Of a stretch of DNA of 64,000 nt, positions 1 to 64,000 are shown one piece after another. Made by a program: the position numbers and the translations under genes. Each line of letters starts with the position of its first letter. The first letter of the stretch is position 1. The stretch covers positions 14,794,384 to 14,858,383 of the forward strand of contig NC_044925.1 of assembly GCF_003576645.1 (NCBI RefSeq), read 5' to 3'. The stretch comes from Ipomoea triloba (Eukaryota > Streptophyta > Magnoliopsida > Solanales > Convolvulaceae). The notes below the pieces were generated by a model. That model did no database searches, was not told the origin of the DNA, and saw only the letters and a list, made by a program, of their open reading frames with translations.

Positions 1-1267
1 CAACAACATCACAAAAGCAGCCTCTGGGAGCAGATTCCAGAGAACTTGCGGAACACACTGACGGAACACCGTCTTCCGCCGCACTCCTCCCGCAGGAAGG
101 AGGCGGACTGCCTCAACGGAACACCACTCTCCGTTCAACCCAACCGCCTTGGCCTTGCGGAACTCCCCGGCGGGTTACATTGTGCCGCGAGGACCTCCGC
201 AAGGTCAACTCCAACCCCAGTTCCAGAACATCAACAGCAGACACGAAAGAGGTATTTCCAGAGAGCAAAATCAGACCCAATACACCAACATTTCATCCAA
301 TTTAGAGGCCAAAGACATGGAAATCCAAACCATCAATGATCATACAACACTAATCAAAAGATCAAGATGAAATCCAACAAATAGATCCAACAAAATAGGC
401 TAATCACAAAGAATTTTCAGGATTTCCAACACCAAGAACATCATATAGAATAGGAGTGAATAAAAATAGTTTTGATGGACATAGTGGTTACCTTAAGAAG
501 CTCTTTCCACCCAAGCAAAGCCTCAACAAAGCTCACAAAGCCCCACCTTCTTGATGATCATCTTTTACCCAAAGAACCCCAAAAAGAAAACATAAGAACT
601 TGCATAAAGATCACTAAAACCATAAGATGCAAAGAATATTCCTAGATAGATGCACTTACCCAAACTCAAACAAGCCTAAAGGAGCAATCTTGACTTGAAT
701 TCTTGAAGGAGAAATGAAGATCAAATTTGGAGGAAAATGAAGATGAAAGTGGCGTGAAAGTGTAGGAGTAGGGAAGAGAGAGGGAGTGAAAACCTTTAGG
801 GATTTTTAGTCTTGAATATATATACTACAATACATATATTATATTAGGGTGAAAGACTTAATAAGAATTGGGCTCAAAACATATATTATATACATACAAG
901 AATATAATGTACAAGATTAATTAGTTGGGCTAAGAAACTCATCTCTAGTCAATTAATCATATATATATTAGAATAAAGAAAGCCCATAAGATGTCTTAAA
1001 GACTTTATACTTATATATTATTAAGAAATTGGGCCATTGTAAGAATACTTTTAATTATAAGAATTGTAAGGATCCAAATTGAATAAATCCCTTACAAGAA
1101 TAAATTCAAGAATTGGGCTCTTGGTTAAAATAATTAATTTAGGCTCAAGAAATATATATATATGTATATATATTAAATTGAAAGAATTAGCCCAATTGGA
1201 ATTAATTAAATTACCCAAGGAATTAATTATCGGTAGTAAGGCTTGAACGAATTTTCGGGGTGTTACA
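1..1267 (-). mobile_element. LTR of a long-LTR Ty3/gypsy element, 5' end at 1267, runs off the window
   Basis: On the minus strand the segment starts with TGTAACACCCCGAAAATTCG, the same TGTAAYACCCC-type LTR start seen at 5787. It abuts the interior of an Athila pol gene, so an LTR retrotransposon appears inserted there. A splice-donor-like G|GTAAGTGC lies about 0.6 kb inside (donor at 659-658 on the minus strand), comparable in place to donors in the other two LTRs. The other half of the element lies outside the window. No ORF of note is seen; positions 46-210 hold a CpG-rich imperfect repeat around CGGAACACC/CCGCAGG. Confidence 0.65.
46..210. repeat. CpG-rich imperfect repeat inside LTR
   Basis: Several near-copies of CGGAACAC, TTCCGCCGCA and CCGCAGGAAGG alternate in a GC-rich block within otherwise AT-rich LTR sequence. 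It resembles in style the GGACGCG minisatellites near 8.7, 16.7 and 56.1 kb, but the core motif is different. Confidence 0.4.
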
Positions 1268-2806
1268 ACTATTCCTTCTTCCACCATGTAATAGCATTTC
1301 TCCCAACTAAGTGCTAAGTTAACCTCCAAACATCTCTTGAGGACTTTTTCTAGATTGCTTAGGCATTCATCAAAGGTTTCCCCCCAGATAGTAAAGTCGT
1401 CCATACATACCTCCATAAACTCCCCTATATAATCCTCGAAGATTGCTAACATGCATCTCATAAAGGTAGCCGGCGCATTGCACAACCCGAAAGGCATGCG
1501 CCGGTAAACAAAGGTACCCATAGGACAAGTAAATGTAGTTTTCTTTTGATCCTCTAACGCTACCGGTATTTGAAAATAACCGCTCATACCGTCTAAGAAG
1601 CAATAGAAAGCATGTCCACTTACCTTTTCTACCATTTGGTCAATAAAGGTCAACGGAAAGTGGTCCTTCCTAGTGGCATCGTTCAATCTTCTATAATCAA
1701 TGCAAACCCGCCACCCCGTCACACTACGGGTAGGAATTAATTCTTCTTTATCATTTTTCACTACCGTTATTCCCCCTTTCTTAGGTACTACGTGTGTGGG
1801 ACTCACCCACGCACTATCCGAGATCGGGTAGATCATTCCTACGTCCATTAGTCTAACCACCTCATTCTTGACCACCTCGGTCATATTGGGGTTTAACCTT
1901 ATTTGGGGTTGGGCCACGGGCTTTACATTTTCTTCAAGTAAGATTTTGTGAGTGCACATACTAGGACTTATTCCCTTTAAATCTTGTAATTTCCAACCTA
2001 TTGCTCCTTTATATTCTCCTAACAACTTCACAAGTTTCTCTTTTTGATTTTCATTTAGATTTGATGAAATTACTACCGGTAAGCTTGAATCTTTTCCTAG
2101 AAAAGCATACTCTAGATTATCCGGCAAAACCTTAAGCTCACTCTTTACTTCTTTCTCTATAAACACTCTCTCTTTTTCCTCCTCTTTTTCACTACTCAAC
2201 AATACATCACGTACACATCCATCCTTTTCCTCCTCAACTTCACCAAGAAATTCATGAATATACAAAGCATCATCAACACAATTATCAAGAAAATTCACAA
2301 TCTCAACATCATTTAAATCACACAAACTAGCATTAACATTCATATCATCACCAAAAAGCATATCATGCAAATCATCAACATTCTCATTTGTCAAGGCATT
2401 ATCATTAAAAGTAAAAGTTTCAAGACCATCATCATCATCACATAAGACTTTCAAATAAGCATCATTTTTCAATTTGCCCACAAGATTGGGATAAATGGAC
2501 TCAACATGCTTCTGGAAAATGTCCACAAACTAGCATGCGTCATCCGTAGTCATCGGGTACTTGGTCAACTTTGAAACATCAAACGTGGCGCATTCATCAC
2601 CTACCCTAAGAACAAGCTTCCCGCTCCCCACATCGTTGAGGGCCCGAGCGGTGGCCGAAAACGGCCTACCTAGGATCAACGGGACCTCATGGTCGGGATC
2701 CATGTCTATAATCACGAAGTCTACGGGGAAGATGAACTTATCAACTCTCACCAAAACATCCTCAACAACCCCCTTGGGTTGCTTAATTGACCGATCGGCC
2801 AATTGA
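1268..2806 (-). pseudogene. Athila-type pol fragment (protease end to RT), copy A
   Basis: A 1,539-bp fragment of an Athila-type polyprotein gene covers the end of the protease region and most of the reverse transcriptase, including the catalytic CMDDF and the MPFGLCNAPATF motif. It aligns to 11202-12740 with a constant offset of 9,934 bp, so no indel separates the copies, only scattered substitutions. A TAG at 2527-2529 interrupts the frame where copy B has TAC. Both edges are inside the gene: the start of an LTR at 1267 on one side and truncated LTR sequence at 2807 on the other. It is a dead fragment. Confidence 0.85.
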
Positions 2807-2846
2807 TCGCCTATGTAGACTATCCCGACTTGACCTCCACCACATA

Positions 2847-3251
2847 TCAGATCATACGATACACTGGGATCTCAAACTCTCCCCAAACTAGATGCCATTC
2901 GCCCTCCAACCACACAAGGTGATCCAAGGAGCGATCAGTGACCATGACCATAGACCATTCTCCCTCGGGAGGAGTGGGATCCCAGAGATATGGGTAATGT
3001 ACAATGAACTCTAGGGGGTCGCTACCCGGTAAAACTTCTATTGGGTAGTAGCCCCACCGAGCCGGATGAGCATCTACCAGAGACACAAGAGAGCTAGATA
3101 GTGAGAAGGAATCGTCAGGAGCTAGCAGAGTGTGGCCGGGTACGTAGGGGTCCTCCCCTATCATATGCTGTACATAGACTCCATATCCAAAAACTGAGCC
3201 ATTATAGTTCGGTGAAGTTACCGAACTATACGACTCATTGCTGGATGACAT
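2847..3251 (-). CDS. LTR-internal ORF, 134 aa, conserved with 59017-59454
   Basis: The product is a small acidic, Trp/Tyr/Pro-rich protein of unknown function. I do not recognise a domain, signal peptide or membrane segment. The C-terminal two thirds match the ORF in the LTR at 59017-59454, with shared cores GSDPLEFIVHYPY and GEWHLVWGEF. In those cores (28 codons) I count 13 synonymous differences and one replacement, which points to protein-level selection. The ATG follows directly after a TTTAACAG acceptor-like site, and 3279-3297 carries the same 19-bp ACTTAGCCGTCGTGCTAAC block as the other copy. It ends TGA 37 bp before the truncated end of the LTR. Function and expression are not known from sequence. 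Confidence 0.6.
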   Translation of the reverse strand: MSSSNESYSSVTSPNYNGSVFGYGVYVQHMIGEDPYVPGHTLLAPDDSFSLSSSLVSLVDAHPARWGYYPIEVLPGSDPLEFIVHYPYLWDPTPPEGEWSMVMVTDRSLDHLVWLEGEWHLVWGEFEIPVYRMI

Positions 3252-5048
3252 CTGTTAAAGGGCAACAACGAAGCACCCGTTAGCACGACGGCTAAGTAAG
3301 AACCCATAAGCTTCTCATTCATAGGTAAAGATGTTTTAACTTACCAAATGACCATAGCATAGAATTTCCTAATGACTGATATGCTTTCATGTTTGTAAAT
3401 TACGATAATATAAACAAATAAGCATAAATTTAATCATATTCACATTACACACGCGAATTTCCTCAACCATACCTGACAACTTCACTATATCCCGATTCTC
3501 AGACATCAAACGTCTAGCTTCTTGGAGCTAGCATCACCCATCTCATCATAGACATTGATTCAACCATTACTTATGAAAACTCGACTTAGTTTCATTTCAA
3601 AGTATGAGGCCTTATAGGAAATGTTGAATATTCCTTGTCGGTTGACCGAATGAACCTGGAACTTGGGCTTGCGGTCATTACCCAAATTCTCTTCTCGGTC
3701 CCTTGGACGAAGGTTCATTAGAATGGCCCCTAGTGTGGCCCCGCCTAGGTCCATTAAAATGACACCAACCCGGAGACGACGGAGTCAATACGCTTAAGTG
3801 TGCACACCCCCACAGTCTAGCCATACATGAGTGACGTAGAGACTCGGCGAATAGACTTCGCCAAAGTACGAATACAACCGTACATATATCAATGACGACC
3901 TTCGGTAATTATAGCCCGAGGTAAAAAGACAACAAGGTCGTCGTAACTTCTTGAAACTAAGGTTTTATTCATTTTACACATTAACTACTCTTGTTCCGAC
4001 AATACGCTCACCTTTCCTACTCATACACTCTTCAACATGTAGTACATAAGTTCACATATCACGACAACAACCAACATGGTATGATTACACTATCAAATTC
4101 TTTCCTATGCTTACCACGCACTTTATTAACTCATTCACGTTCACAATACATAGTTCACATACACTACCTATACATATACATATATAACATTAACATACCT
4201 ATACTCATATATATCATATATATACGGTATATAATATAATATATATCGATAGCATGTAATTGGTAATATAACATATAATATAGGTATACAAAAGGTATAT
4301 GGTACATGATATAATGTATATGGATAATACATATATTTTACAACATAATATATATATGTGTTACGGTATATATATATATATCATCATATATATATATTAT
4401 ACCACACACACGTAATGTATTTATATATATTACACACCCCCGTAACATATATATATGTATATCACACACACATGTAATATATATACATAACACACACACG
4501 TGATATATATATAATACACACATGTAATATATATATATAACCCACACACACATAATATATATATAATACACACACACACGTACATAATATATATTATATA
4601 GATATATATATCACACACACATACACATAATATATATAATACACACACACACGTAATATATATATAATACACACACACACATAATATATATATACTACCC
4701 ACACTCACATAATATATATACTACACACACACACGTACATAATATATATACTACACACACACACGTATATAATATATATACTACACACACACACGTACTT
4801 AATATATAAATATCACACACATACACCATATATATATATCTATCACGTCACACACACATACACGTTACATATATATATATCACGTCACACACACATACAC
4901 AATATATTTATATATACTACTAATTTATGTGTACAACATGTTCAATACACAAAATATTCACAAATTACATACAACTTCATGGATTGGAAATTAATTCACC
5001 AATTACCTACTTTGAGTAGCTATAATTCCAACTTGAGGGGTAACTTAC
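3252..5048 (-). other. Predicted leader intron in the LTR
   Basis: A strong donor (GAG|GTAAGTTA, GT at 5048-5047) and an acceptor with a CTAAC branch-like motif and pyrimidine tract (CCCTTTAACAG, ending at 3252) bracket 1,797 bp. The acceptor is immediately before the LTR ORF start codon. The copy at 57008-59016 has the same arrangement. Confidence 0.5.
4140..4920. repeat. TA/CA compound microsatellite field
   Basis: About 780 bp of alternating blocks of (TA)n and (CA)n, with repeats such as AATATATATACTACACACAC and CACACGTACATAATATATA. Translated ORFs here are low-complexity artefacts. The matching position of the other LTR (57220-57760) carries the same class of repeat. Confidence 0.9.
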
Positions 5049-5350
5049 CTCAATCTCACTACGAACACAAGAAATTCGAAGATTGAAGCTCGGGATTCAA
5101 CCTTTGCTCTTAAAATCCTAACATAGAACACAATAATACAAATATGATTCAACAAAATTCTACCCAAAACTATGAACTAGGAGTAAAAATATAACTTTTA
5201 ACCGATTAAATATAAATTTTACCGAACAAATCGTGATCAAAGCTTGGAACTTGCTCTCTCTCTCTCTCTCTCACGAAATGAGGATGAAGATGAAGAAATG
5301 AAACTTTAGTTTCATTCTTATCACATTATATATATATACGAATTAGGATA

Positions 5351-5381
<31 letters not shown>

Positions 5382-5874
5382 TAATATAAGGATACTTATC
5401 CATCCAAATCTATATAATAATAATATTATAATATATGGATACTTATCCATAATTATATATAATAATAATATTACTAATAATAATAATAAAATATGGATGA
5501 ATCTTATCTCATAAGCTTGGTACCAAAAATATTAATATTAATATTTTTTGCACAAAATAATCCTTTGAGATAAAAATTTTACAATAGGTTAATTTCAAAC
5601 AACATCTGGACCCCTTTTAAAACAATAACTTGATTTGAAATACGTTGGTCCAGAGTTCGCGAAACAACCTTTGTTTTGAAAGGTACATAATTATAACGAA
5701 ATATTCTTGAAAATGTTGGATTTAATAATAAATCCGAGATAATCTTAATAAAAGAAATTTTGGGTTTAAAATTTCGGGGTATTACACCTCCTTTGATTCG
5801 TGTTTCTTCCCTGAGCCTTTTTTTCTGCCTGTAAGCTTTTGCGCCCCCTGTTCAATTAAGCTCAATACACAAAA

Positions 5875-6384
5875 GAGTTAATTCCAACAATGGTCCTCCG
5901 ACTATGTTGATTTTCCAAAATTAGTCATCGACTTTTAATTTGGACAATTTAGGTCCCTTGACTATCGAATTATTTCCAATGTTGGTCCTTTCGTCAAATT
6001 TTGGTTAAATTGAGGCCAAATAAAGGGGTAAAATCGTTCGTTCACTTGTATACTCGTATTTCTTATGTCATATACGCTATATATATGAATATAATATCAG
6101 TCGAAGAGACATCGAATGAGATTATATGGCTTTGATTAAGAGTTTGACTGAGATTATATTCATATATACAACATATAGGATAGGAGAAATACGAGTAATA
6201 ATACACTAAACATGTGAATGGACAATTACACCTCTTCATTTGACATCAATTTAACCAAAATTTGACGAAAAGACCAACATTGGAAAGAATTTGAAAGTCA
6301 AAGGACCTAAATTGTCCAAATTAAAAGTCGGGGACTAATTTTGGAAAATCAACATAGTCGGAGGACCATTGCTGGAATTAACTC
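5875..6384. mobile_element. MULE-type MITE with long TIRs
   Basis: Both ends carry GAGTTAATTCCA, and the inverted arms extend about 150 bp or more. A 9-bp duplication ATACACAAA lies at 5865-5873 and 6385-6393. The long arms and 9-10-bp duplication fit a Mutator-like non-autonomous element. No coding sequence. A relative sits at 27505-27984. Confidence 0.8.
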
Positions 6385-10651: not shown

Positions 10652-12712
10652 TTAAGCCTCGGTCTTAGACATTAGATACCTAAGTGCCGCATGATCCGTG
10701 AAAACAATTACCTTAGACAAAAGAAGATAGGGCCTAAACTTATCAAGGCCAAAGATTACCGCTAGCAATTCTTTTTCTGTGGTGGTGTAGTTTTGTTGGG
10801 TTTTGTCTAGGGTCTTGCTTGCAAAAGCTATGGGTTGAAAATGTTTCTCCTTCCTTTGTCCCAACACTACTCCTACCGAATATCCGCTAGCATCGCACAT
10901 CATCTCAAAGGGTAGATTCCAATCCGGTCCCACTAAAATTGGTGCACTCACTAATCTCTCCTTGAGGGTATTAAAAGCAAGTAAACACTCTTCTCCAAAC
11001 TCAAAATCTATATCCTTCTCTAGAAGCTTAGTCAAGGGTCTAGCAATCATGGAAAAGTCTTTGATGAAACGTCGGTAGAAACCGACATGTCCTAGAAAGC
11101 TTCTCAAACTAGTTACCGAATTAGGAGGCGGTAGGGTGTCTATAACCGATGTTTTTGCTTTGTCTACTTCTATTCCTTTTCCCGACACTTTATGACCTAG
11201 CACTATTCCTTCTTCCACCATGTAATAGCATTTCTCCCAACTAAGTGCTAAGTTAACCTCCAAACATCTCTTGAGGACTTTTTCTAGATTGCTTAGGCAT
11301 TCATCAAAGGTTTCCCCCCAGATAGTAAAGTCGTCCATACATACCTCCATAAACTCCCCTATATAATCCTCGAAGATTGCTAACATGCATCTCATAAAGG
11401 TAGTCGGCGCATTGCACAACCCGAAAGGCATGCGCCGGTAAACAAAGGTACCCATAGGACAAGTAAATGTAGTTTTCTTTTGATCCTCTAACGCTACCGG
11501 TATTTGAAAATAACCGCTCATACCATCTAAGAAGCAATAGAAAGCATGTCCACTTACCTTTTCTACCATTTGGTCAATAAAGGTCAACGGAAAGTGGTCC
11601 TTCCTAGTGGCATCGTTCAATCTTCTATAATCAATGCAAACCCGCCACCCCGTCACACTACGGGTAGGAATTAATTCTTCTTTATCATTTTTCACTACCG
11701 TTATTCCCCCTTTCTTAGGTACTACGTGTGTGGGACTCACCCACGCACTATCCGAGATCGAGTAGATCATTCCTACGTCCATTAGTCTAACCACCTCATT
11801 CTTGACCACCTCGGTCATATTGGGGTTTAACCTTATTTGGGGTTGGGCCACGGGCTTTACATTCTCTTCAAGTAAGATTTTGTGAGTGCACATACTAGGA
11901 CTTATTCCCTTTAAATCTTGTAATTTCCAACCTATTGCTCCTTTATATTCTCCTAACAACTTCACAAGTTTCTCTTTTTGATTTTCATTTAGATTTGATG
12001 AAATTACTACCGGTAAGCTTGATTCTTTTCCTAGAAAAGCATACTCTAGATTATCCGGCAAAACCTTAAGCTCACTCTTTACTTCTTTCTCTATAAACAC
12101 TCTCTCTTTTTCCTCCTCTTTTTCACTACTCAACAATACATCACGTACACATCCATCCTTTTCCTCCTCAACTTCACCAAGAAATTCATGAATATACAAA
12201 GCATCATCAACACAATTATCAAGAAAATTCACAATCTCAACATCATTTAAATCACACAAACTAGCATTAACATTCATATCATCACCAAAAAGCATATCAT
12301 GCAAATCATCAACATTCTCATTTGTCAAGGCATTATCATTAAAAGTAAAAGTTTCAAGACCATCATCATCATCACATAAGACTTTTAAATAAGCATTATT
12401 TTTCAATTTGCCCACAAGATTGGGATAAACGGACTCAACATGCTTCTGGAAAATGTCCACAAAGTAGCATGTGTCATCCGTAGTCATCGGGTACTTGGTC
12501 AACTTTGAAACATCAAACGTGGCGCATTCATCACCTACCCTAAGAACAAGCTTCCCGCTCCCCACATCGTTGAGGGCCCGAGCGGTGGCCGAAAACGGCC
12601 TACCTAGGATCAACGGGACCTCATGGTCGGGATCCATGTCTATAATCACGAAGTCTACGGGGAAGATGAACTTATCAACTCTCACCAAAACATCCTCAAC
12701 AACCCCCTTGGG
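10652..12712 (-). pseudogene. Athila reverse transcriptase-RNase H region
   Basis: It copies element RNA into cDNA. In order: the end of the protease domain (VDFVIIDMDPDHEVPLILGR), a long acidic linker, RT with CIDYRRLNDATRKDHFPL, GMSGYFQI, MPFGLCNAP and the catalytic CMDDF, then RNase H with CDASGYSVGVVLGQ, KELLAVIFGLDKFRPYL and TDHAALRYL. The frame is continuous for 678 codons from 12688 and ends at a TAA (10652-10654). It is in frame with gag upstream and integrase downstream, so the whole element encodes one polyprotein broken only by stops. Copy A at 1268-2806 is nearly identical. Confidence 0.92.
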
Positions 12713-13138
12713 TTACTTAATTGACCGATCGGCCAATTGAATGCATATGCGAGTGGCCTTAAGAGCCCCCAACTCTAATTTCTTAAAGAGATAAAACGGC
12801 ATTATATTTATACTTGCCCCGGAGTCCGCTAAGGCTTGGCTAAACTCGGCGTCGCCAATTTGACATGGGATGGTGAAGCTTCCGGGATCCGTGAGCTTTT
12901 GCAGTTTGTGGCGCACGTACGCGGAGCATCCCTCCCCTAGCAAGACCGTAGTCGATTCCTCTAGCTTCCTCTTGTTGGTGAGCAAGTCCTTCAAGAACTT
13001 GGTATACCTTGGCATTTGTCCTAATGCATCAAGAAAAGGTACGTAAATGTGCAATTGTTTCAATAAGTCTAGAAATTTACCATATTATGTCTTGTCCATG
13101 TTCTTCTTCACCCTCCCGGGGTATGGGAGTGGTGGTGG
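12713..13138 (-). pseudogene. Athila protease region
   Basis: This is the aspartic protease part that would cut the polyprotein. The active-site motif ADSGASINIMP and the conserved KLTDPGSFTIPC lead are visible between 13063 and 12713. In-frame TAA codons lie at 13085-13087 and 12713-12715; the second is CAA (Gln) in copy A, which shows a C-to-T change. Frame is shared with gag and RT. Confidence 0.88.
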
Positions 13139-56183: not shown

Positions 56184-57007
56184 TGTAACCCCCCCCAACC
56201 TATTTCAGTAAAATTAAGGTTCGAAAAATATTTCTTGAGGCTATAACATCCATGAGATGATCTCCAGATGCTTCAAAAGAATTATTATAAGTAAGGACAG
56301 TTAGTAATAAGCTGCGATCGTACGTCCCGGTCACGAACCGTAATAATTTTAGGAACTACTATTCGGACCCGTTTTTCCTAGGAAATGGATTTTTAGGCAT
56401 CATACTATTATTCTTGAATTTCCTATTTAATTAGATTAGCCCATAGCAGCCAAAATTTATTTGTGATCGTACATCGCGAAATTTCGCGGTGTACCGAACC
56501 TAGCCCAATTTTGAGTTCTAGACTGGAATAAATTTTTGGGCTCGAGAATTATTTGAACTAAATTAGTTTCTACCGAGAATTCATCTGATTTAATCCCAAG
56601 CAGTCTAAGTTAAGATATTTTAGATTATTCTATTAATTCTTTTGCTAGATCTTATCCTTAAGAGGTAGACTAGTCAACCCATGGACCAAGACCATAAAAC
56701 CCAATTTTTTTTTTCCCTTTTGGCTTGTGGTGGCCGAAATTCCAAGAGAGAGAGAGAGTGAGATTGTTCATCTTCTTCATCAAAGCTCCAACCTTCCATA
56801 GCCAAGATCTCCACACAAACCTCCAAGATATTCGGTAAAACTCCAATTTTATTTGGTAGATAGCTTTATTTTTCATCCTAGAACATGAATCTAAGTTAAA
56901 ATTTCTTGAAATCTTGTGTTATGTGGTTGATGAAATTTTAGGGTTTTGAGGTAAATTGGGGAAAACCATCTACAAAGACCTCCTACAAGTTTTGGAACCC
57001 ATTTAAG

Positions 57008-57345
57008 GTAAGGAATCCCTTTATTTGGTTGAGGTTGTTGAAACTAGGTAATTGATGATTTGGTTGAATTATTATGAGTGCTAGATGGAACTTTTGCGTA
57101 CATGATGCATGTATAAATATATAATGGTATTATTCATAATATATGTGTGGACAAAATATTGTGTTGGTATGAAGTGGTTGCCAATGTGCCCAAAATATTT
57201 AATTTAAGTATACTAGGTATATTATAAATGGATGTAATGTATGTACATGTAATGTGGTATAGTAAATATATATATGTATATATATATCATGTAATGTGGT
57301 ATAGTAAATATATATATGTATATATATATATATATATGTTTTATG

Positions 57346-57379
<34 letters not shown>

Positions 57380-59016
57380 GTTTTATGTTATATGTATATA
57401 TATATATATGATACTGTATAAGTATACATATATGTATATTAACGTGAAGTGTGTGTGTGTGTAACAAATCCTATGTAATATATATATATGTATTACGTGA
57501 AGTGTGTGTGTGTAATTAATTGTGTAAGTATATATATATATATATATTAACGTGGGTGTGTGTGAGTGTAATACATATATATATGTATATAATTAGGAGT
57601 ATTAATTACATATATATAAAGTATGTATATACATGTAGAATAGTATATAATATATACATACAAATTACACTCGTGTATTGTGTAGGTATATATATATATA
57701 TATATATATATATGAAGGTCGTATATATATGAGTACATATATAGGTATGTATGTATGATTAAAATGTCACCTTTTGTGTGAGGTATATAGTTTGTATAAA
57801 CCATAATTATATATGTTGGTAGTAAGAAGAGCGACACTATATAGTTGGGTAGTACGTGCTTGTAAAGAATAAATAGTTGTTATGTGTTACGTATATGTTG
57901 AAATTGGAAAATGTACATATTATATACATTGAGATGTATGGGTTAAATGTGAGGCTTATGTGACATATATGTGGAGTTAAAAGTGTAGGGTAGTACACTT
58001 GAATTACCTTAGTGATATGATGTTAGTGGATCATTCAAATGCCTTGAAAAGAAAAGGAGAAATTTTGGATTGGGTTGAAAGGAGAATTAATTTTCGAGTA
58101 TTGGGATTTACCCAAGTATGTTCAAACTATTTTCAAAGCAAGAAAGGGGAAAGAATAGGAAAATATTTTCAAACCTTAGCTCTAGTAAAGTTGTGAAGGA
58201 TCTTGTTAACCACGGAATAAAGATGAGCTTAAAGTGCCTATTCCGCATGGTAATTATGTGTATGATCAATCATACGGTGGGCGAAGTCTATTCGCCGAGT
58301 ACTATATCACCCGGAAGGAAAAGGACTCCTACGGGGGTGTGCACACTTAAGTATAGTCACTCTATGTTCGGGTAGGTGTCGTTCTTATGAACCTAGTGAG
58401 GCTAGCTAGGAATCATTCCAACGCTCCTATAAGTCCAGGGGATCAGTATTAGACCGGGCGATGACCACTGAACCCGAGTTCAACGATCCAAGTGGTCAAA
58501 AGTGGAGAAAGGACTCCAAAGGCCTCACACTTTCTATCTAGGACTAAGTGGAATTTCGAAATATGAATGTAGTTACTCCGTAGCTACGGGAAAGAAAGAT
58601 GTGACAAGTAATTAAATACCCAAAGTTTGTGAGTAATCTTACTCTTTGAAAGGTGAAAAATGATGAGACTCTCTTTGTGAGGGAAAGTTTTCTACTAAAA
58701 TGATTACAAGCCAGATGTACGAATTATGTTTATATTACTTGCTAGTATGCTTATCTATTTAAACATTATATTATTGAATATGTGAATGATTACTAAATGA
58801 CCTTGTCAAGAAGGAATGTTACCAACATTATTGAATTCTATTCATGATGTATGCAAGCTGTTGATTATAACTGTTGCAGGTAGAATCTTGCAGATGAGTA
58901 AGGTATAGGGTATCCTAAGTAATCTTTTGCTTTCAAACCTTTACTTAGTTTTAAATAACCCTTGGATATCCTTACTTAGCCGTCGTGCTAACTACACTTC
59001 ACTGTGTTTTTATCAG
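57008..59016 (+). other. Predicted leader intron in the LTR
   Basis: Donor TTTAAG|GTAAGG and acceptor TTTTTATCAG bracket 2,009 bp. A CTAAC branch-like motif lies in ACTTAGCCGTCGTGCTAAC (58974-58992), identical to the copy at 3279-3297. The acceptor is directly before the ATG of the LTR ORF. Confidence 0.5.
57220..57760. repeat. TA/GT compound microsatellite field in LTR
   Basis: Blocks such as ATATATATGTATATATATAT, GTGAAGTGTGTGTGTG and TATTAACGTG repeat. It occupies the same place in the LTR as 4140-4920. Confidence 0.9.
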
Positions 59017-59454
59017 ATGCCGTCTAGTGTCAGTTCTTGCAGCCCGGTGAACTCCGAAAGTTCACCGGAGTATGTGTGTCAGGGCATGGATTATGATGAT
59101 TACATACAGATGATGGAGGGAGAAGACCCATACGCACCTGGTTATGCTCCCGAGGCTCCCACGAACCCAGATACTCCTATGGCTCCGTCGGCCCCGTTTT
59201 TCTCTTGCCCGGTTATGGACGAGATCCAGGCTGCTTACGGCTTTTACCCCATAGAGCCGTTAGAGGGTAGCGATCCCCTAGAGTTCATTGTGCACTACCC
59301 CTACCCTTGGGACCCTAGCCCTCGGGATGTTTGGGAGGAGTGGTCGATGGTCATAACCACTTCTCGGTTTTTGGACCATATTACTTGGTATGAGGGGGAG
59401 TGGCACCTGGTCTGGGGAGAGTTCACTGGCCCCGTGTACCGCAGGCTTGACTAG
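59017..59454 (+). CDS. LTR-internal ORF, 145 aa, conserved with 2847-3251
   Basis: The product is an acidic, Pro/Trp/Tyr-rich small protein without a domain that I recognise. N-terminal residues 1-20 are Ser-rich (MPSSVSSCSPVNSESSPEY); then an acidic stretch (YDDYIQMMEGEDPYAPGYAP) and the conserved C-terminal core GFYPIEPLEGSDPLEFIVHY, followed by WDP, EEWSMV, LDH and GEWHLVWGEF. The start at 59017 is chosen over the upstream Met at 58927 because it follows a splice acceptor and lines up with the other copy. Synonymous differences dominate between the two copies. It is encoded in the LTR, so a full element would carry it twice. A regulatory or accessory role is possible; no evidence decides. 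Confidence 0.65.
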   Translation: MPSSVSSCSPVNSESSPEYVCQGMDYDDYIQMMEGEDPYAPGYAPEAPTNPDTPMAPSAPFFSCPVMDEIQAAYGFYPIEPLEGSDPLEFIVHYPYPWDPSPRDVWEEWSMVITTSRFLDHITWYEGEWHLVWGEFTGPVYRRLD

Positions 59455-59807
59455 ACGTTGGATCTTTGGGAGTCTTTGGGAAATTTTTGGTGTACATATA
59501 TTTTTTTGTAGCCTCGGTGATGGCTAGGTATGACCAGTTGCGTCTAGGTGGAACCTTGTTGGTATTTTGGCCCGTGGGTCAATCTTATGTATGTATTTTT
59601 GCAACATTATATACTTTGCTTAATGAAGCTTCACCAGTTGCTATGTATGAAAGTGTTAAGTACCTGTTGAGTGATTATTGTGATGAGAATAGTTCCTTTA
59701 GCCTGTGCACCTAGAGTGAGGTTTATCGCGGAATGATAGAACTCTCTCTCTAGGTGTGGCGGTAATGCCTCGGATGTACGGGAAGGTAGGTCCGGGGTGT
59801 TACAAAG

Positions 59808-59820
59808 TGGTATCAGAGCC
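59808..59820 (+). other. Primer-binding site (initiator tRNA-Met)
   Basis: TGGTATCAGAGCC, complementary to the 3' end of plant initiator tRNA-Met, 3 bp after the LTR. Confidence 0.93.
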
Positions 59821-60295: not shown

Positions 60296-60695
60296 ATGCC
60301 GCCTAGACGAAATGTACCTGTCGGTCAGGGCGATGAGATACCAGCAATGGATCGTATGGCTCTCGCAATGGAACAGATGGCTGGATTTATGATGGCTCAA
60401 CAAGTCCAGAATCAAAGTAACAGACAGCCGCGAGTTGATTTTGCAAAGGCCATAGCGAGCAGGCAGCCACCATACTATGCGGGTGAAGAAGACCCGGTGA
60501 TCTTAGAAGAATGGATCAGGACATTTGACAAGCTGCTCGATGCAGTCAACTGCCCTGCAAATCAGCGAGTATCCTCTGCCGTGTACTATCTGACAAAAGC
60601 GGCAGACAACTGGTGGTCAACAGCTGGACCTGACTTGCTGCAAGACCCAGACTTCGGCTGGGAGGAATTCAAGGAAGAATTGAGAGGACAATTCT
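60296..60695 (+). CDS. Ty3/gypsy gag, N-terminal part (cut at N)
   Basis: Gag would form the particle. It starts MPPRRNVPVGQGDEIPAMDR; an in-frame Met lies 9 bp upstream at 60287. A helical Met/Gln-rich segment precedes the Retrotrans_gag domain ([54 protein letters not shown]). It breaks at an N (60696), after which pol sequence follows. The true gag continuation is represented by 60966-61223 and 61225 onward. Confidence 0.88.
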
Positions 60696-60696
60696 N

Positions 60697-60964
60697 CAAC
60701 CTGAACCAAGGTTGATGACGATGCAGAGGCTGATGAAGTACGCTCGCAAGGGGTGTGAAGTGTACCTCTGTTTAATGCAGGAAGCTGGGATGGAAGAACC
60801 TGAACTAAATCAAATCCCGGTGGTGCGTGAATTTCCCGATGTGTTCCCGGATGACCTCACGGAAATGCCGCCAGAGAGGGAAGTGGAATTTACCATCGAC
60901 CTCGTACCAGGGACCGCACCAATCTCGAAGGCGCCTTACCGAATGGCACCGAAGGAGATGGAAG
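60697..60964 (+). pseudogene. Misplaced pol fragment (between protease and RT)
   Basis: About 268 bp, nearly identical to 62438-62705, with [20 protein letters not shown] and [20 protein letters not shown]. It sits between two Ns inside gag, in the wrong order, so this looks like an assembly chimera rather than a real gene. Confidence 0.85.
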
Positions 60965-60965
60965 N

Positions 60966-61223
60966 GATGCAGTCAACTGCCCTGCAAATCAGAGAGTATC
61001 CTCTGCCGTGTACTATCTGACGAAAGCGGCAGACAACTGGTGGTCAACAGCTGGACCCGACTTGCTGCAAGAGCCAAACTTTGGCTGGGAAGAATTCAAG
61101 GAAGAACTGAGAGGACAATTCTATACAGAAAGAATTAAGGGAATCAAGTGTGAGGAATTCCTGCGGCTGAAACAGAAGGGAACAACGGTGCAGGCCTATT
61201 ACGAACAGTACGTGGAGCTGATG
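60966..61223 (+). pseudogene. Repeated gag fragment between Ns
   Basis: It repeats the gag core (NQRVSSAVYYLTKAADNWW to [20 protein letters not shown]) with small differences from 60540-60695 and 61225-61408. It ends at N 61224. Confidence 0.85.
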
Positions 61224-61224
61224 N

Positions 61225-63335
61225 GTGGTCAACAGCTGGGCCCGACTTGCTGCAAGAGCCAGACTTTGGCTGGGAAGAATTCAAGGAAGAACTGAGAGGA
61301 CAATTCTATACAGAAAGAATTAAGGGAATCAAGTGTGAGGAATTCCTGCGGCTGAAACAGAAGGGAACAACGGTGCAGGCCTATTACGAACAGTACGTGG
61401 AGCTGATGAGGTTTGCTCAGAGTATTGTGCCTGACGAAGCCAACAAGGCGAGGAGGTTCGTACGCGGACTGGATTGGGCTGTGAGGAGTGCGATTGCACC
61501 GTTTATGTGCACTACACTCAAAGAGGCATACGACAGAGCATCCGATCACTACCAAGTGTACCTGGATCAACAGGAGGTGTACAGCAAGAACAAGAAGAAG
61601 GTGGATGATAGACAAGGGAAATTCAAGGCGGACAACAAGAAAACCAACCAGGGAAGGTTTAATCCCATGCAAGGGGAAGGGAAAGGAAGAATGAATCAAA
61701 GGAGAGGTTCAGCTTGCCGGAGGTGTGGACGAGATCACCTTGGAGAAAATTGCCAAGGGGAGAAAATCAGATGCTTTAAGTGCGGATTTCTGGGGCACAA
61801 GTACTACGAGTGCCAAACCAGAACAGACAATTACCGGGACCCCTCTCAGAGAAACAACCAAAGAGGAGGGTTCGGTGGGAACACCAGCCAGAGGCCCGCG
61901 GAGGCAAGAAATGGAGGAGGCAACTCTCAACAGGGAAACCGAGGGAGGCCGGCCAACGCAGCTCCAAACCCCACCAACAAAGGGAAAGCGCCAGTGGGAG
62001 CGAGCAGCGCAGTGAACCAGGGCAAGATCTACGTCGTTAACAGCAAGCAGGCGCAGGCTAGCGACGTTGTGACTGGTACATTCCTTATTAACTCAGTACC
62101 TGGCTTAGTATTGTTCGATACAGGAGCTACTAATTCGTTTATATCCTCTACATTTGCGGATAGACTAAAGTTAAGGCCTACTATTGAGTTAGATTTGAAT
62201 GTAAGAACTGCCTCGGGAATAGTAGTGGCCTGTAAGGAGGGATATGACAATATCACAATAGAAATAGCGGGATCCAACTGTCCCGGAAACCTCATTCGTT
62301 TCGATCTAGAGGGTATCGATGTGATACTAGGAATGGACTGGTTGGATAAACATAAGGCTCAGATAGTATGCAGTGAGCGAAAGGTTGTCCTGCGAGGACC
62401 GAAGGGGAGGAGAATATCCTATCGGGGAATGGAAAAGCAACTTGAACCAAGGTTGATGACAATGCAGAGGCTAATGAAGTACGCTCGCAAGGGGTGTGAA
62501 GTGTACCTCTGTTTAATGCAGGAAGCTGGGATGGAAGAACCTGAACTAAATCAAATCCCGGTGGTGCGTGAATTTCCCGATGTGTTCCCGGATGACCTCA
62601 CGGAAATGCCGCCAGAGAGGGAAGTGGAATTTACCATCGACCTCGTACCGGGGACCGCACCAGTCTCGAAGGCGCCTTACCGAATGGCACCGAAGGAGAT
62701 GGAAGAGTTGAAGGCTCAACTAGCAGAGTTATTGGAGAAGGGATTTATTAGACCAAGTGTGTCACCTTGGGGCGCACCGGTACTGTTTGTGAGGAAAAAG
62801 GATGGAAGTCTAAGACTGTGCATTGACTATAGAGAGCTCAATCGAGTCACAGTGAAGAACAGATACCCATTGCCCAGGATCGACGATCTGTTTGATCAAC
62901 TGAGGGGAGCAGGCGTGTTTTCAAAAATTGATTTACGGTCAGGGTATCACCAAGTGCGAGTCACGGAACAGGATATTTCCAAAACTGCATTCCGGACTAG
63001 GTATGGGCACTACGAATTCACAGTTATGCCGTTCGGAGTGACCAACGCACCAGGAACTTTCATGGACTTGATGAACAGGATTTTCCTTCCATACCTGGAC
63101 AAGTTTATTGTGGTCTTCATAGATGACATCTTGGTTTACTCTAAGACCCCGGAAGAACATGAGGAGCATCTCAGGATAACGCTACAAACATTGAGGGAAA
63201 AGAAACTTTACGCAAAACTTTCAAAGTGCGAATTTTGGAAAGAGGAAGTGGCATTCTTAGGTCACATAATCACCAGGGAAGGAATAGCAGTGGATCCAAC
63301 TAAGATAAGAGCCGTAATGGAATGGGAGCCACCCA
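61225..63335 (+). CDS. Ty3/gypsy gag-protease-RT polyprotein (partial)
   Basis: One open frame runs from 61226 to the gap at 63336. In order: end of the gag domain ([20 protein letters not shown]), two CCHC zinc knuckles ([13 protein letters not shown] from 61715; [14 protein letters not shown] from 61772), a Gly/Asn/Gln-rich linker, aspartic protease ([13 protein letters not shown], from about 62111; VILGMDWL), then RT with [79 protein letters not shown] and the catalytic FIDDILVYS near 63114-63140. RNase H, integrase and any chromodomain are lost in the gap. Motifs are complete, so this copy was recently active. Confidence 0.92.
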
Positions 63336-63559
63336 NNNNNNNNNNNNNNNNNNNNNNNNNNNNNNNNNNNNNNNNNNNNNNNNNNNNNNNNNNNNNNNNN
63401 NNNNNNNNNNNNNNNNNNNNNNNNNNNNNNNNNNNNNNNNNNNNNNNNNNNNNNNNNNNNNNNNNNNNNNNNNNNNNNNNNNNNNNNNNNNNNNNNNNNN
63501 NNNNNNNNNNNNNNNNNNNNNNNNNNNNNNNNNNNNNNNNNNNNNNNNNNNNNNNNNNN
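63336..63559. other. Assembly gap, 224 N
   Basis: The gap follows the end of the RT domain (EWEPP). Sequence after it jumps back to the gag C-terminus, so its real size or order is uncertain. Confidence 0.99.
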
Positions 63560-64000
63560 CAGAAAAACAATCAAAGAGGAGGATTCGGTGGGAACACCAG
63601 CCAGAGGCCCGCGGAGACGAGAAATGGGGGAGGCAACTCTCAACATGGAAACCGGGGGAGGCCGGTTAATGCAGCTCCAAATCCCACCCACAAAGGGAAA
63701 GCACCCGTGGGAGAAAGCAGCACGGCAAACCAGGGCAAGATCTACGTCGTTAACAGCAAGCAAGCTCAGGCTAGCGACGTCGTGACCGGTACATTCCTTA
63801 TTAACTCAGTACCTGGCTTAGTATTGTTCGATACAGGAGCTACCAATTCGTTTATATCATCTACATTTGCGGATAGATTAAAGCTAAGGCCTACTATTGA
63901 GTTAGATTTGAATGTAAGAACTGCCTCGGGAATAGTAGTGGCCTGTAAGGAGGGATATGACAATATCACAATAGAAATAGCGGGATCCAACTGTCCCGGA
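63560..64000 (+). CDS. Second Ty3/gypsy gag C-terminus-protease segment (partial)
   Basis: It aligns to 61848-62288 with a few percent differences: the [15 protein letters not shown] linker, [37 protein letters not shown] and the start of the protease fold. It belongs to another copy of the same family. The frame is open to the window edge. Confidence 0.88.

Follow-up and report, generated by a model that had tools for sequence, protein, structure and literature searches.

The LTRs of retrotransposons are usually annotated as non-coding, and solo LTRs are taken as inert or regulatory. Extra ORFs were reportedly surveyed by Steinbauerova and colleagues. Such ORFs (aORF/eORF) are well known in plant LTR retrotransposons, and the portions of the literature cited here include the 5′ aORFs of Tekay elements (PMC7264820, PMC6317226, PMC11728184). 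In the cited portions of PMC6317226 and PMC11728184 the extra ORFs are placed only relative to gag-pol; the former, a survey of 2019, used an eORF threshold of at least 250 codons and, in these portions, does not name LTRs as excluded, and the latter gives a 5′ aORF of 402 aa for group 2 of the sunflower Tekay elements and mentions the protection of Vandal transposons from silencing. A term search of the main text of PMC7264820 for "in the LTR" and "within the LTR" found no such wording, and the role of several plant retrotransposon extra proteins is given there as undetermined. According to the passages cited, gag-pol of CRM elements, and of some Bingo elements of the Reina clade, extends at its end into the 3′ LTR (PMC3059260, PMC3605345). 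The sag product of mouse mammary tumour virus is described, in the part of the source cited, as an "LTR-encoded ERV protein" and a type II transmembrane superantigen (PMC11998498).

Here, an ORF is described that is carried by both LTRs of one family (2/2) in the window, which is the whole 64-kb stretch of DNA that was analysed. Like the plant aORFs and eORFs in the cited portions of the literature, it is a non-gag-pol gene of a Ty3/gypsy-like element, in sense orientation, upstream of gag and without a known domain. However, the aORFs of PMC7264820 are placed, in the text cited, in the internal region, whereas the ORF of LTR A (ORF A) lies inside the LTR and not in that region. The plant CRM/Reina chromoviruses resemble it, as far as the passages cited go, in having protein-coding sequence in a plant LTR, but there the coding sequence is a gag-pol run-on, while the ORFs of LTRs A and B are separate, each with its own ATG and stop, and lie deep in the LTR. 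The likeness to sag, within the cited part of that source, is that of a separate accessory gene encoded by an LTR. No sequence relation is claimed, and Sag belongs to a mouse retrovirus. Among the matches listed, whose titles and abstract openings were covered and in which the subscription literature is mostly not included, no distinct ORF fully contained in a plant LTR was found. Thus, extra ORFs of plant retrotransposons are known, but the location inside the LTR is unusual.

Structure of the two LTRs

LTR A (56184..59804, plus strand) is the 5′ LTR of a Ty3/gypsy-like element. Its ends, TGTAAC...GTTACA, were read directly, and it is followed by a PBS-like sequence and, further downstream, by a protease and a reverse transcriptase. 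The putative primer-binding site TGGTATCAGAGC (59808..59819, plus strand) adjoins the 3′ end of the LTR and is, we assume, of the usual tRNA-Met type. ORF A (59017..59454, plus strand), which encodes 145 aa, stops 350 nt short of the end of LTR A, with the PBS-like sequence beyond. Since LTR A ends with GTTACA and the PBS-like TGGTATCAGAGC follows, ORF A is located inside the LTR and upstream of the PBS.

A frame that is presumably gag-like starts at 60296 and extends to 60694 (plus strand), where it runs up to an N in the assembly; a Pfam scan of this piece gave no match. Further downstream, Pfam identified an aspartic protease (RVP_2, E 4.6e-33, match ending at ∼62395) and a reverse transcriptase (RVT_1, E 8.8e-39, match starting at ∼62789). 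The spacing of ∼390 bases leaves no room for an integrase between the two. Therefore, with the PBS adjoining the LTR and the protease directly preceding the reverse transcriptase, element A is Ty3/gypsy-like, a class assignment made in a disturbed assembly and in a window that stops before the integrase position. From the LTR ends, the PBS and the look of gag-pol we assume that the family probably belongs to the Tekay/Del clade. The window covers the 5′ LTR of element A, and the 3′ LTR lies beyond it. The gag-pol region (60539-63859) contains internal direct repeats and N at 60696, 60965, 61224 and 63336-63559, and these repeats and N positions suggest a mis-assembly.

LTR B (2816..5787, minus strand) starts with TGTAATACCCCG at 5787 and is truncated at 2816. 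It contains ORF B (2847..3251, minus strand), a homologue of ORF A that encodes 134 aa. Bases 1268-2815 are a 99.1% copy of 11202-12749, so that this stretch of 1548 bases, which we take to be part of a neighbouring Athila-like element, occurs twice in the window. Because this copy occupies 1268-2815, LTR B ends at 2816. In the preliminary description the LTRs had been placed at 56184-59804 on the plus strand, which stands, and with an end at 2807 on the minus strand, which is corrected here to 2816 from the repeat junction. LTR B is broken off 31 nt past the stop of ORF B, and its last few hundred bases, including the 3′ end, and the PBS are missing. The duplication is either a rearrangement or an assembly artefact.

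Two further features were observed in this part of the window. An inverted repeat at 5875-6384 beside LTR B has arms of 178 nt that are 89% complementary, with a spacing of 154 nt, and is MITE-like. A further LTR-like start, TGTAACACCCCG, is found at 1-1268 (minus strand), inserted in an Athila-like reverse transcriptase; it has a CT-rich leader and a donor-like GGTAAG and runs off the window.

Coding conservation of the ORF

In both LTRs the ORF is located 2.5-2.8 kb from the LTR start. It had been proposed from the letters alone that the two divergent LTRs hold an ORF for one common protein, and indeed ORFs A and B are both intact and share 51% protein identity over 130 columns (E 6e-40, for the single pair). 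The count of 13 synonymous changes and one replacement in the 28 codons of two named blocks was reproduced exactly on recounting, with 14 of the 28 codons differing.

Over the 134 aligned codons of ORFs A and B, identity at first, second and third codon positions was 73, 72 and 40%, respectively. Omega was estimated from these two DNA copies using our own pairwise codon model (GY94-type, F3x4) and amounted to 0.215 for the whole ORF, with a likelihood ratio statistic against omega 1 of 39.9 (p 2.7e-10), and to 0.167 and 0.175 for the C-terminal 70 and the N-terminal 64 codons, respectively; since the synonymous sites are saturated, the exact values are unreliable and can only be read as far below 1. 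By the Nei-Gojobori method, pN was 0.19 and pS 0.75 in the C-terminal part, and when the C-terminal differences were redistributed at random in equal number, an equally low pN/pS did not occur in any of 5000 trials. The open frame alone is weak evidence, because 11 of 5000 composition shuffles stayed open. Both ORFs form a GC island, with 55% GC in ORF A compared to 32% upstream and 43% downstream, and 50% in ORF B compared to 30% upstream.

Alternatively, the sequence could be conserved as DNA or RNA, for a role as promoter or as a signal in packaging or reverse transcription, with the open frame as a by-product. Other stretches of the LTR are conserved as DNA, namely a 21-nt block and a block at 58280-58396 (both described below), but third codon positions are far more variable than first and second positions, omega is below 1 (p 3e-10), the four gaps within the aligned ORFs measure 9, 9, 6 and 6 nt, and there is a family of 21 relatives at the protein level. 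This explanation is disfavoured and is considered extremely improbable. Between the two copies, the ORF protein is under purifying selection. The proposal of a selected protein encoded inside the LTR is thus supported by an omega well below 1, by the third positions being the most variable and by 21 related database proteins.

Related proteins

A search of 5.8 billion proteins with the single sequence of ORF A yielded 13 relatives among 19 candidates, and an alignment-based search of the same number of proteins yielded 21 relatives among 832 candidates. A third search, with 18 rows, returned 15 of these, none of them new, while 6 of the 21 were absent. Only three of the 21 relatives are named, two of them Ipomoea triloba loci and the third a partial protein of Morganella morganii; the other 18 are located on short contigs of 547-2322 bases. 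Judging by the two Ipomoea triloba loci alone, the host plant is perhaps a member of the morning-glory family. The relative filed under Morganella morganii (P0010) lies on a 582-base contig and is probably plant contamination.

The preliminary description gave no named family for the protein, in agreement with the Pfam search, in which ORFs A and B matched no family at E up to 10. The scan covered both ORFs and four of the 21 relatives, of which P0005, P0008 and P0014 had no match at E up to 1. The sole match was found in P0011 (Ipomoea triloba LOC116024109), a gene model that fuses the C-terminal part of the LTR protein to a SAC51-type bHLH domain; it was bHLH_SAC51, lay in the fused tail and scored 28 bits against a cut-off of 28.5. 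Judged from this gene model, P0011 may be an LTR spliced into a host gene or a wrong gene model. Among PDB sequences, a profile of 14 family sequences found none at E up to 1.

These searches bear on the possibility that the ORF is a captured host gene, retained by the element or co-opted by the host. The GC island within an AT-rich LTR would fit such an origin, as would the two annotated Ipomoea triloba loci, one of which is joined to the SAC51-type bHLH. Against it, ORFs A and B have no Pfam family, solved structures contain no sequence relative and none of the three named matches among the 21 carries a host-gene name. A captured host gene is therefore regarded as clearly improbable, and an accessory protein belonging to the element is preferred.

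Close relatives are P0003, with 84% identity to ORF A, and P0012, with 91% identity to ORF B. A tree was built from 18 rows, consisting of both ORFs and 16 of the 21 relatives, and the fusion P0011 and the fragments P0019-P0022 were left out. ORF B paired with P0012 (support 100/100) and ORF A with P0003 (97/98), while 7 of the 15 inner branches were unresolved. From these two pairings it follows that at least two lineages keep the frame.

The selection might also belong to the past, with all present copies silenced and decaying. As expected of such a fossil, LTR B is cut short and surrounded by rearranged sequence, and element A contains internal repeats and N gaps. On the other hand, both ORFs are intact, near relatives (84-91%) are open in other records, and some protein clusters have several members (11 for P0007 and 6 for P0006). 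The frequency of broken copies is not readable from the database, since it holds predicted proteins only. We consider an old fossil quite unlikely.

Predicted protein structure

The ORF A protein is acidic, with 25 D/E compared to 4 K/R, and members of the family contain 3 to 6 tryptophans, fragments counted. AlphaFold2, run with an alignment of 18 sequences, predicted that the N-terminal half is disordered and that the C-terminal part folds into a compact beta domain. Aromatic residues are conserved in this C-terminal part. In ORF A this predicted domain comprises approximately residues 79-143 and is modeled as four strands, two short ones followed by two long ones that form a hairpin. The same four-strand domain was predicted for ORFs A and B, whose models are not independent, because the alignment rows are common to both. 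In blocks of ten residues, pLDDT was 78-89 from residue 81 in ORF A and 81-91 from residue 71 in ORF B, whereas the whole-protein models are of low confidence, with mean pLDDT values of 65.9 and 63.9 and pTM values of 0.46 and 0.49 for A and B, respectively.

Comparison of the models with a structure library gave no convincing match, which does not prove a new fold. A PAM2 motif protein was considered and rejected, as none of the 18 members fitted the consensus pattern (one of them, P0018, is without that part of the protein). Thus, Pfam, PDB sequences, the structure library and the PAM2 pattern revealed neither a functional motif nor a fold relative.

Splice-like signals and other conserved LTR DNA

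Outside the ORF, LTRs A and B have little in common by blastn, apart from a block of ∼117 nt, a 22-nt exact match and simple-repeat stretches. The 22-nt match includes a 21-nt block, TTACTTAGCCGTCGTGCTAAC, which is identical in both LTRs and lies upstream of the ORF at 58972..58992 (plus strand) in LTR A and, by alignment, at 3279..3299 (minus strand) in LTR B. When the window was scanned for TTACTTAGCCGTCGTGCTAAC with up to 3 mismatches, just these two matches were obtained and shuffles gave 0, a comparison that has to be read with the fact that the pattern was chosen because both LTRs have it. The block ends with TGCTAAC, which is close to the branch-point consensus. It is followed in LTR A by a candidate 3′ splice site, TTTTTATCAG (59007..59016, plus strand), that abuts the ATG, and in LTR B by CCCTTTAACAG, likewise directly before the ATG. 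The distance from the block to this junction is 24 nt in LTR A and 27 nt in LTR B, and YAG/ATG (the slash marks the junction) is found in both. Because a branch-point-like block and YAG precede both start codons, splicing at the ATG-adjacent YAG is suggested.

LTR A has the 21-nt block in phase with the ATG (LLSRRANYTS...). In LTR B a stop codon upstream of the ATG interrupts that frame, and P0005 uses a different frame of the block (YLAVALTTLHC). Since the three do not share an open frame through it, the block is conserved as DNA and not as protein. The residue preceding the Met is visible in seven sequences and is Gln, consistent with a CAG codon, in six of them (A, B, P0005, P0017, P0020, and P0021). 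The seventh, the Ipomoea triloba gene model P0008, has Leu at this position, possibly as a trace of an exon join, although this is no proof.

The leader common to both LTRs contains a GA repeat, TTCG/GTAAAA and AG/GTAAG. Two aligned sites are therein considered as candidate 5′ splice sites, among several other GGTA sites per LTR: TTCG/GTAAAA at 56835..56840 (plus strand) in LTR A and 5217..5222 (minus strand) in LTR B, and AG/GTAAGG at 57008..57013 (plus strand) in LTR A, which aligns with AG/GTAAGT at 5043..5048 (minus strand) in LTR B. A TATA-like CATAAAA at 56693..56699 (plus strand) is a candidate promoter of LTR A, and LTR B contains several TATATA. Past ORF A, AATGAA at 59622..59627 (plus strand) is a candidate poly(A) signal; nothing similar was found in the 31 nt that remain after ORF B.

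A second conserved non-coding block is located in LTR A at about 58280..58396 (or to 58470; plus strand) and contains a hairpin of GGCGAAGTCTATTCGCC and GGGGGTGTGCACACTTAAG. Over ∼117 nt it has 72% identity to LTR B, where it is found at about 3745..3862 (minus strand), and it is possibly a regulatory or RNA signal. Both this block and the 21-nt block before the two ATGs are additions to the preliminary description.

The main alternative at this point is a peptide made from unspliced genomic RNA, in which the ORF would be a leader upstream ORF that precedes gag and modulates its translation or the packaging of the RNA. ORF A (59017-59454) lies upstream of the gag-like frame at 60296 in the same orientation and would be part of the genomic RNA if transcription starts upstream. 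However, its length would be large for a regulatory upstream ORF, its product retains a domain that looks folded, and the identical branch-point-like block with YAG at the ATG suggests splicing. We therefore regard a leader peptide as unlikely and prefer a spliced gene, of which the ORF looks like the last exon, contained within the LTR.

Discussion

Taken together, we favor, as moderately probable, that the ORF encodes a selected, spliced accessory protein of a Ty3/gypsy family, with its gene wholly inside the LTR. From the sequence we infer splicing, transcription of the LTR alone and translation of the ORF. RNA polymerase II would start near the 5′ part of the LTR. Removal of an AT-rich intron of ∼1.8-2.2 kb would join a non-coding first exon to a second one whose first bases are the ATG, and the message would have its poly(A) site before the LTR end. 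The product would be a small acidic protein, disordered in its N-terminal half and folded into a compact beta domain at the C-terminus. Within the cycle of its own element it might serve as a trans-acting protein-protein adaptor that regulates the expression or silencing of the LTR. An acidic disordered N-terminus combined with a small folded C-terminus favors an adaptor or activation domain over an enzyme or a nucleic-acid-binding structural protein. Therefore, a trans-acting protein-protein adaptor, rather than a structural protein or an enzyme, is our most likely guess.

VANC proteins are anti-silencing proteins, and the Tas proteins of foamy viruses are transactivators. Both offer a possible functional analogy, in which a protein of a mobile element lifts silencing or activates its own promoter. 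That the LTR protein has such a role, in transactivation or anti-silencing, is a guess to which we give a low but appreciable probability. Going further, each LTR could be a self-contained gene, with promoter, non-coding exon, intron, coding exon and poly(A) site, that encodes the trans-acting transactivator or anti-silencing factor of the family. Solo LTRs would then still make the factor, and plants would have their equivalent of an accessory gene encoded by an LTR. This full reading is rather doubtful.

Since the LTR ORF comprises 134-145 codons and the 2019 survey, in the portion cited, had a floor of 250 codons (PMC6317226), that survey would miss it, and the floor is one way in which the ORF may have escaped notice. 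If the LTR does encode a selected protein, solo LTRs can be genes, constrained coding sites enter into the LTR divergence on which dating relies, and a protein family is concealed by masking. If each LTR were a self-contained gene, solo LTRs would keep making the factor and the genome would have very many sources of it. The LTR ORF also offers an approach to the function of the extra proteins of plant retrotransposons.
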